NCBI GenBank assembly: GCA_000999315.1
Contig: LCFW01000001.1
Location: 62,001-126,000, forward strand
Origin: Candidatus Peregrinibacteria bacterium GW2011_GWF2_43_17
Lineage (GTDB): Bacteria > Patescibacteriota > Gracilibacteria > UBA1369 > UBA12470
DNA: 64,000 nt
Reading direction: 5' to 3'
The first letter of the stretch is position 1; each line of letters begins with the position of its first letter. Positions 40,214 through 41,686 of this stretch are shown in pieces. Made by a program: the position numbers and the translations under genes. A model generated the notes under the pieces. The model saw nothing but the letters and a program-made list of their open reading frames with translations, ran no database searches and was not told where the DNA came from.

Positions 40214-40708
40214 ATGGCTTATTCATTGAACAGAGCACAAGTTATCGGAAATCTTACTCGCGATCCTGAACTTAGAACTATCCCGAGCGGGACTGCGGTT
40301 TGCGGTTTTGCGGTTGCTACCAATGCGGTTTGGACAGATGCGAGCGGACAGAAACAAGAGAGAGCCGAGTTCCACAATATCGTTTGCTGGAGTCGAATGG
40401 CAGAAATTGCCGGACAATATCTTAAAAAAGGAAGCAAGGTTTATGTTGACGGTAGGTTGCAGACTCGCGATTGGACGGGTGATGACGGAGTTAAAAGGTA
40501 TAGAACGGAAATAGTTGCCGAGAATTTGATCATTCTGGACTCGAAAGGTGGTCATTCCGGCGCGCCAATTTCATCTTCAGAGAGGAAACAGTCCAGTATA
40601 AAAGAGGATAAGGAAGATCAGGTTGAAGATTTTGAGGATGCTAAGAAAGTTAAGAAAGCGAAAAAAGAGGTTGAGGAAGAGGTGACGGTGGATGATTTGC
40701 CGTTCTAG
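40214..40708 (+). CDS. ssb: single-stranded DNA-binding protein
   Basis: 164 aa from ATG 40214 (MAYSLNRAQVIGNLTRDPELR). The 13-residue upstream extension comes from an A-rich leader. The OB fold is clear (VCGFAVATN, QERAEFHNIVCWSRMAEIAGQYLKKGSKVYVDGRLQTRDW...TEIVAENLIIL). A charged linker ends in the acidic tail DDLPF used to bind partner proteins. It forms tetramers in replication and repair. Confidence 0.96.
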   Translation: MAYSLNRAQVIGNLTRDPELRTIPSGTAVCGFAVATNAVWTDASGQKQERAEFHNIVCWSRMAEIAGQYLKKGSKVYVDGRLQTRDWTGDDGVKRYRTEIVAENLIILDSKGGHSGAPISSSERKQSSIKEDKEDQVEDFEDAKKVKKAKKEVEEEVTVDDLPF

Positions 40709-40762
40709 AGTTACAGAAACGCTCTCTGGCTGAATCCATTAGACCATTAGGCTGTTTTATGG

Positions 40763-41080
40763 TACAATTATCTGATCCCTACTTTTCTTGGGCGTCCGGC
40801 TTGCCCATCAAAAGTTCCCTCTCTTTGCCACGGCATTCATGAGGGACAAAAAATAAAAACAAATTGGACAAAAACGCTTCACTTTTCAAGAGTAGAAGCA
40901 TAAAAAAATCCAAAATAAAAAGTGACCGGTGGCGATCCTGTCAAAAAACATTACTCGCCAAAGAACGGTAGAGGATCAAGGGCTCAAAAAACCCAGAAAG
41001 CCGGTAATAGTCCACCGCTCTTTATACACTTAAAGAGCATACGGAGGAGGTTCGCAGTAATGTGAGCCTCTTTCTTTTTG
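40763..41080 (+). ncRNA. structured RNA candidate with own promoter and intrinsic terminator
   Basis: The 410-bp gap before gmk holds no ORF. An extended -10 (TGGTACAAT, 40760-40768) gives +1 near 40775. Predicted helices in order: ACTTTT/AAAAGT with GGGC/GCCC (40781-40815); TCCCTC/GAGGGA enclosing TGCC/GGCA (40816-40846); GCTTC/GAAGC (40876-40899); ACCGG/CCGGT (40925, 41001) enclosing GATCCT/AGGATC and GGG/CCC; GCTCTTT/AAAGAGC (41017-41038). The RNA ends in a terminator, GAGGTTCGC/GTGAGCCTC plus a T-rich tail (41047-41079). It does not fit RNase P, tmRNA, 6S or SRP RNA by their conserved motifs. About 305 nt. Confidence 0.55.
41047..41079 (+). terminator. intrinsic terminator of the ncRNA candidate
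   Basis: GAGGTTCGC (41047-41055) and GTGAGCCTC (41062-41070) pair over 9 positions, three of them G-U, with a 6-nt loop. TTTCTTTTT follows. Confidence 0.75.
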
Positions 41081-41109
41081 TTGATTCCCAGGTGTCGCGG
41101 ATGTTAAAG
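41081..41109 (+). promoter_or_regulatory. gmk promoter TTGATT-17 bp-TTAAAG
   Basis: TTGATT (41081-41086) starts right after the terminator T-tract. TTAAAG (41104-41109) follows after 17 bp and the ATG at 41120 after a further 10 nt. The -10 is weak, so this is a moderate call. Confidence 0.5.
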
Positions 41110-41119
41110 TTCTCTTAGT

Positions 41120-41686
41120 ATGAAAGGAAAACTTTTTTTAATCTTGGGGTCGTCGGGGTCCGGGAAGGGCGTTGTTCTTTCCGCTTTGAGGGAGAAACAT
41201 CCCGAGTGGATTTTTCCATTGTCTTGTACTACTCGTGAAAAAAGACCTTATGAAAAAGATGGCGAGGTTTATAATTTTATATCTAAAGAAGAGTTTAAGA
41301 AGAAAATTGATAGGGGAGAGTTTCTTGAGTATGCGGTGGTGCATCAGGATAATTATTATGGAACGCTTAAGGAGCCTATTCTTGATGCATTAGGAGCTGG
41401 TAAGACAGTCGTGAGAGAGGTTGATGTTCAAGGTTTACGCTCGATAAGAGAGATTATTTTGAAAGATCAGCTTGTATCTATATTTTTGATTGTAAAATCG
41501 TGGGATGTTTTAAAGTTGCGGATTTTGGGTAGAAGCAAGATGAGTGATGAGGAGCTTGAGCGCAGGCATCAGAGTTATATGATTGAAAAAGAGTGGGAAA
41601 AAGAGTGCGACTTTGTGATTGAAAGTGTGAGTGGTGAACAGGAGACGGTGACTTCCGAAGTTGAGAAGGTGATATCGGGGGAGTAG
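41120..41686 (+). CDS. gmk: guanylate kinase
   Basis: 188 aa. Phosphorylates GMP to GDP. P-loop GSSGSGKGVVL (Gly replacing the usual Ser/Thr after Lys, as also in some Firmicutes enzymes), LSCTTREKRPYEKDGEVYNFIS for GMP binding, FLEYAVVHQDNYYGTLK, and REVDVQGL. Length is slightly short, with no omega extension. It lies between the ncRNA candidate and tRNA-Gln. Confidence 0.94.
   Translation: MKGKLFLILGSSGSGKGVVLSALREKHPEWIFPLSCTTREKRPYEKDGEVYNFISKEEFKKKIDRGEFLEYAVVHQDNYYGTLKEPILDALGAGKTVVREVDVQGLRSIREIILKDQLVSIFLIVKSWDVLKLRILGRSKMSDEELERRHQSYMIEKEWEKECDFVIESVSGEQETVTSEVEKVISGE

Follow-up and report, generated by a model that had tools for sequence, protein, structure and literature searches.

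We have found, between the genes ssb and gmk in the window (by which we mean the whole stretch of DNA analysed, 64,000 nt), a structured RNA that recurs in related genomes, where its stems are kept by compensatory changes. The reading we favour, to which we give a slightly better than even chance of being correct, is that a gene standing by itself encodes a structured RNA of the housekeeping type, which acts in trans, belongs to a family absent from Rfam and has as its core a putative protein scaffold. In broader terms, the Gracilibacteria group probably possesses here a functional RNA that had escaped recognition, the class having been taken as Gracilibacteria because TGA is read as glycine in flanking genes of some same-class genomes (up to 19 such codons) and the closest named relatives of gmk include a Peregrinibacteria MAG. 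The family is new, its kind is not: other large structured RNAs of unclear function are already known.

The flanking genes ssb (PF00436, E 4e-37) and gmk (PF00625, E 1e-30) both lie on the plus strand and leave a noncoding stretch between them at 40709–41119, with the gmk start at 41120. The original prediction had described an ORF-free, structured RNA of at least seven helices, preceded by an extended -10 and closed by an intrinsic terminator, and in all of these points it stands. Specifically, there is no ORF of at least 50 aa in 40771–41082, the sequence TGG-TACAAT (40760–40768) forms the second hexamer of a promoter match scoring 9/12, a 14-bp hairpin with a U-tract is found at 41043–41074, and the minimum-energy fold contains well over seven helices. 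The energy of this fold, -98.2 kcal/mol, is far beyond the -67.9 ± 5.1 kcal/mol of 100 dinucleotide shuffles (0/100 as good), and the reverse strand of the locus reaches a z of only -2.61. Both ends of the gene have been placed from the promoter and the terminator. A separate promoter for gmk had also been proposed; the promoter scan of 40600–41200, a region for which shuffles give a mean of 0.6 matches, detected none between the terminator and gmk. The features assigned to the locus are the following.

40740–40768, plus strand: promoter, TAGACC, 17 nt, TACAAT, with TGG as extended -10 (9/12 match)
40771–41082, plus strand: structured RNA gene, about 305–312 nt (fold z -5.94; DNA relatives; covariance model match)
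40774–40782, plus strand: 5' strand of helix P1, GAUCCCUAC, partner at 40968–40977 (covariation, 42 sequences)
40781–40815, plus strand: P2, ACUUUU/AAAAGU (40781–40786/40810–40815) around UGGGC/GCCCA (40789–40793/40803–40807)
40816–40846, plus strand: P3 hairpin, UCCCUC/GAGGGA (fold; variable among relatives)
40847–40923, plus strand: A/C-rich single-stranded linkers AAAAAUAAAAACAAA, ACAAAAAC and AAAAUAAAAA (A columns nearly invariant in alignment A2)
within 40847–40923, plus strand: P4 hairpin interrupting the linkers, UUGGA/UCCAA and GCUUC/GAAGC (fold)
40924–40929/40937–40942, plus strand: pseudoknot stem 1, GACCGG/CCUGUC (covariation, 42 distinct sequences)
40931–40935/40955–40959, plus strand: pseudoknot stem 2, loop GGCGA with UCGCC (covariation)
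40960–40968, plus strand: conserved linker AAAGAACGG from the pseudoknot to P1 (alignment A3)
40968–40977, plus strand: 3' strand of P1, GUAGAGGAUC, with one bulged A in the window copy (covariation)
41002–41017, plus strand: P6, CGGU AAUAGUCC ACCG (read in the sequence; scripted comparison with relatives)
41017–41038, plus strand: P7 hairpin, GCUCUUUA/UAAAGAGC (fold; script)
41043–41082, plus strand: intrinsic terminator, 14-bp stem, GUAA loop and U-tract, where relatives have the 3' hairpin with CACCUCU

The anatomy that comparison brings out is that of a domain closed by P1, with hairpins set on A/C-rich strands and an H-type pseudoknot at its end, followed by a 3' domain. In relatives the 5' strand of P1 reads CUCCCUAC, followed by UUUUC, and the 3' strand reads GUAGGGAG. 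For P2, the GGGC/GCCC arm appears in the computed fold, both helices can be read in the sequence and an equivalent arm is present in the family members L002 and L003. The UAGUYGG-like loop of P6 is kept in relatives while its stems change, as judged by a scripted search and by reading, and is based on the loci where the anchor search worked, this search having been misplaced in many loci. The original prediction had further drawn a multibranched unit closed by ACCGG/CCGGT. Both strings are present, and the helix was rejected: in the sister genome (L002) one side alone is altered, GACCAG against a kept GCCGG, and ACCGG is one half of the covarying pseudoknot stem.

The structure is supported by covariation. 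The scripts worked on 50 loci chosen by script and by eye from 89 scanned, so that fractions over them are not population frequencies, as the counts obtained with the R1 model (see below) are. Alignment A2 holds 42 of the 50, having left out L004, L031, L032, L033, L061, L079, L086 and L104 as distant, inserted or misplaced, and alignment A3 adds L004 to these 42; the helix search retained a wrong 3' partner for L004 and L104. Over the 42 sequences of A2, 92.8% of the cells of P1 and the two pseudoknot stems are paired, against 35–48% with slid partners, and changes on both sides were found in 14 of the 18 pairs, against 4–5 when slid. The covariation score was 0.277 compared to 0.128 in shuffled alignments (0/500 shuffles). 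Taken separately, P1 has 95.5% of its cells paired and both-side changes in five of eight pairs (42 sequences), stem 1 has them in all seven pairs (42 distinct sequences), and stem 2, of five pairs, in four, with 85.7% of cells paired. For the pseudoknot core (43 sequences, 42 distinct) none of 500 shuffles reaches the observed values on any measure, and RNAalifold recovered most of P1 and of stem 1 unaided. By eye, the named and more distant gmk loci L031–L033 have an identical P1 sequence and an H-type pseudoknot written in other letters. The prediction that the stems would be conserved in relatives is thus borne out. We define the family by P1 plus an H-type pseudoknot, both with covariation, and the window RNA possesses the two.

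When 99 related genomes were searched at the DNA level, the family's two other genera gave strong matches (72% and 75% identity, E 2e-45 and 1e-39) and G076 a weaker one (E 1.6e-6), and the gmk-upstream DNA of 80 genome regions presented a similar pattern in many cases. R1, a covariance model made from 43 sequences of the pseudoknot core and spanning 71 positions, matched 95 of 386 genomes at E ≤ 0.01. Its E-values, like those of a second model, R2, are approximate given the short calibration, and stricter filters were applied in the runs over 386 and 379 genomes; the covariance model match to the window RNA scores 58.6 bits. Counted by hand from the match listing, the R1 matches comprise 56 of the 89 genomes of the order (the window's own included), 37 same-class genomes, code-25 Gracilibacteria among them, and two same-phylum genomes. 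R2, run on an even draw of 379 genomes of the phylum, produced 12 matches, ten of them in the window's own or same-order genomes, the remainder being one plausible match in another class and one within an ORF (G577/L197). The two same-phylum matches of R1 are of different quality: that in G355 (L173) also lies inside an ORF, and both of these ORF-borne matches were taken as false, whereas that in G372 (L172, E 6e-4) lies outside the listed ORFs and displays by eye a CCCCUAC/GUAGGGG helix with A-rich linkers. By these models, the RNA characterises this order and some families of its class, and members beyond them are rare at most. The remaining 33 of the 89 order genomes gave no R1 match, and some of these carry, ahead of gmk, elements that are reduced or of quite another kind, for which reason the demand on sequence looks loose for a universal housekeeping RNA.

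The genes around the RNA bear directly on the simplest alternative, a cis-acting leader or attenuator of gmk, which we consider very improbable. Its appeal is that the window copy sits directly upstream of gmk on the same strand. However, of the 57 genomes counted for orientation (the 56 order genomes with an R1 match plus G098), 54 have the RNA and gmk on one contig, and in 53 of these the RNA lies on the opposite strand and reads away from gmk, the window having the sole copy that reads towards it. Even there the intrinsic terminator stands between the two. In the order the RNA is found near ssb and gmk, in two relatives converging on ssb, and in G120 between gmk and the gene of ribosomal protein S20; same-class copies adjoin instead ligA (PF01653) and a DHH-family gene. 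Because of the divergent arrangement in 53 of 54 genomes, the RNA is not tied to gmk, and for the family a cis role on this gene is excluded by orientation; at most, an effect acquired in the window's genome alone might exist. Another reading, that some known housekeeping family, SRP RNA in the first place, has here a diverged member, we hold to be quite improbable. The Rfam 15 covariance models, applied at their gathering cut-offs to the whole window, detected two tRNAs only, and applied permissively (E ≤ 10) to 40650–41150 gave ten matches, the best being PyrR (E 0.21), whose 25.5 bits fall short of the cut-off of 54. The loci of eight relatives and twelve class- or phylum-level loci returned only tRNAs and sub-threshold miRNA-like matches, so that neither the window nor these 20 loci offer a confident match, in agreement with the initial impression that the RNA fitted no known class. 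Two options had been left, a new RNA or a divergent one of the housekeeping type, and this alternative is a sound one, with no known family matched and stems conserved through compensatory changes. A divergent RNase P, 6S or tmRNA was rejected because the genome's own copies are located elsewhere, each above its cut-off: RNase P RNA type A (RF00010) at C1:45076–45466 with 178.5 bits, 6S RNA (RF00013) at C7:39670–39827 with 56.3 bits and tmRNA (RF00023) at C7:46977–47381. The RNA shares with RNase P its size and a long-range closing helix, with tmRNA a length of about 300–400 nt, a pseudoknot and an A-rich segment, and with 6S RNA the character of a stand-alone housekeeping-type RNA, but it gives no match to the tmRNA model and does not form the rod of 6S.

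The slot of SRP RNA, an RNA to be expected in the genome, is unfilled: RF00169, the bacterial SRP RNA, matched 0 of 386 relatives (control genomes positive in 11 of 14), and RF01854 matched 0 of 30 genomes (controls positive in 8 of 14). The SRP RNA of these Patescibacteria has either diverged beyond the models or is missing. Against placing our RNA in that slot, the window RNA has no SRP match at E ≤ 10 and its relatives none at E ≤ 1, and genomes lacking an R1 match lack an SRP match too, so there is no correlation between the two. A string test was also performed with the S-domain pattern of SRP RNA (conserved loop and GNRA cap); the string occurred in 28 of the 50 loci, its position varying among them, compared to 46.5% of shuffles, which is near chance. 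With two Rfam models and this string test negative, and no conserved S-domain string, an identity with SRP RNA is unsupported. A chance structure, a repeat or an assembly artefact has a practically negligible probability. The low complexity of the A/C-rich linkers would fit such an origin, but conservation across genera, synteny and compensatory changes speak against it, the covariation having already refuted it.

Outside the core, most of the relatives examined differ from the window copy at both ends. At the 5' side, P1 is preceded at about 80–220 nt by a promoter-like TATAAT, after which comes GYUCYUURAAA. In the 250 nt ahead of P1, 32 of the 50 loci have a boxA-like motif with at most one mismatch, as do 1.4% of shuffles; for the class-level copies the figures are 14 of 17 and 3.9%. 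BoxA together with Nus factors protects the transcription of rRNA. The 16S leaders of ten relatives carry the group's boxA, e.g., GTTCCTTAACA in the window's genome, perfect or with one mismatch near the 16S gene in seven of the ten and as looser variants, by eye, in the others. Like rRNA leaders, most relatives of our RNA have a boxA-like sequence after the promoter and a leader strand able to pair with the core; unlike them, no rRNA follows. The role of boxA and Nus factors in rRNA transcription is treated in PMC4807359 and PMC10250234. The relatives' leader contains a strand complementary to the 5' half of P1, for which at most five of 100 shuffles were as good in 37 of 50 loci, and none of 100 in 21 of 50, so leader strand and 3' strand compete for the same half of P1. 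No boxA is found between the promoter and P1 in the window's copy or its family. The window, two members of its family and L120 also lack the competing leader strand and have the promoter directly before P1, with 5 nt from the end of the -10 to the helix in the window and a TATAAT at the equivalent place (-16 to -18 of P1) in L002, L003 and L120. As a separate observation on the 16S leaders (L185 and other 16S loci), a GTAATAGAGAA-like word is conserved about 10 nt beyond boxA.

At the 3' side, CACCTCT was found in 31 of 50 loci, compared to 1.7% of shuffles. The alignment of this hairpin, A5, contains 29 of the 31 (L004 and L090 were left out, the stored stretch being too short) and has both-side changes in 13 of 13 outer pairs, with 89.5% of cells paired against 34–57% with slid partners. 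Further in, the CAC/GUG and UG/CA pairs hardly vary, and the helices are 97.7% and 90.8% paired. CACCUCU itself (C14–T20) is invariant in these hairpins, the loci having been selected by that string. A hairpin with the UAGUYGG-like loop precedes the 3' hairpin. Where the relatives have the CACCUCU hairpin, a simple terminator hairpin stands in the window's family, and the window copy, compared with them, reads as a shortened form of a longer RNA. As its family lacks boxA, competing strand and CACCUCU hairpin alike, none of the three can be essential to the core.

Returning to the scaffold reading, a possible course of events can be sketched. In relatives, the nascent leader would pair first with the 5' strand of P1 and hold it until the 3' strand has been made, when it would be displaced and then possibly cut away; its removal would give the P1-closed core that the window's family may transcribe directly. 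BoxA would enable the polymerase to traverse a long RNA that is not translated, as happens in rRNA operons. The folded core could then serve as a scaffold for one or more proteins bound on the A-rich linkers and on the CAC-CUC-UG/CA-U-GUG internal loop, which is the weakest step, and the scaffolded protein or proteins would serve a general cell process. The main rival, which we judge unlikely, sees in the RNA a trans-acting antisense regulator whose exposed pyrimidine-rich segments (CUCCCUACUUUUC, CACCUCU and CACCGCUCUUU) pair with the ribosome-binding sites of mRNAs. The invariance of CACCUCU where the 3' hairpin was found (in loci picked by that string), its resemblance to CACCUCC, the anti-Shine-Dalgarno end of the group's 16S rRNAs, and the ability of the P1 5' strand to pair with two partners all point in that direction. 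However, CAC pairs with GUG and UG with CA in the hairpin, leaving only CUC free, and the window's family has lost this hairpin altogether. A bolder form of the housekeeping proposal seems improbable to us: a core RNA of Gracilibacteria combining boxA antitermination, strand exchange at P1 and a ribonucleoprotein acting in translation or protein targeting, possibly in replacement of SRP RNA.

The RNA can further be compared with OLE, GOLLD, ROOL and raiA, which are large structured bacterial RNAs. It resembles them in being a stand-alone large structured RNA with many helices and a function not evident from sequence, and differs in its host lineage, its A-rich linkers, its boxA-like leader and the lack of an Rfam match. 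PMC12286853 and PMC11706538 deal with such large RNAs. Neither PMC11109978 nor PMC8632094 was found to mention Patescibacteria, Gracilibacteria or Peregrinibacteria, a literature search combining "Peregrinibacteria" with "structured RNA", with preprints and most subscription journals outside its scope, found no report, and a search of phage DNA with the locus gave no match. It is uncommon for an RNA to be conserved across a bacterial order, and into other orders of the taxonomic class, and yet to be absent from Rfam; this one is testable in existing metatranscriptomes, since its structure is backed by covariation and it has both a model for searches and syntenic neighbours. If it were the RNA of a core ribonucleoprotein, the short list of bacterial housekeeping RNAs would gain a member, and this in a branch for which genomes are almost the sole source of knowledge. 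A leader competing for P1 would clearly exemplify how a non-ribosomal RNA can have refolding or processing built into it.

Some loci presented further variants. Three same-class genomes (loci L161, L162 and L174, in G234, G225 and G152) have the RNA in two copies, some 600–800 nt apart. By eye, L067 (G040), L077 (G017) and L097 (G034) have apparently reduced forms at the equivalent place upstream of gmk, consisting of the closing helix, one or two hairpins and A-rich linkers, without the pseudoknot. In family f3, L109 (G004) and L111 (G030) have a different element of about 200 nt upstream of gmk, which follows a promoter and contains repeated GGUUACU or AGUAC-like words. Lastly, upstream of gmk in L074 (G011) there are repeated GGUUAGUAGUA-like words, followed by an element with a P1-like helix and A-rich linkers.
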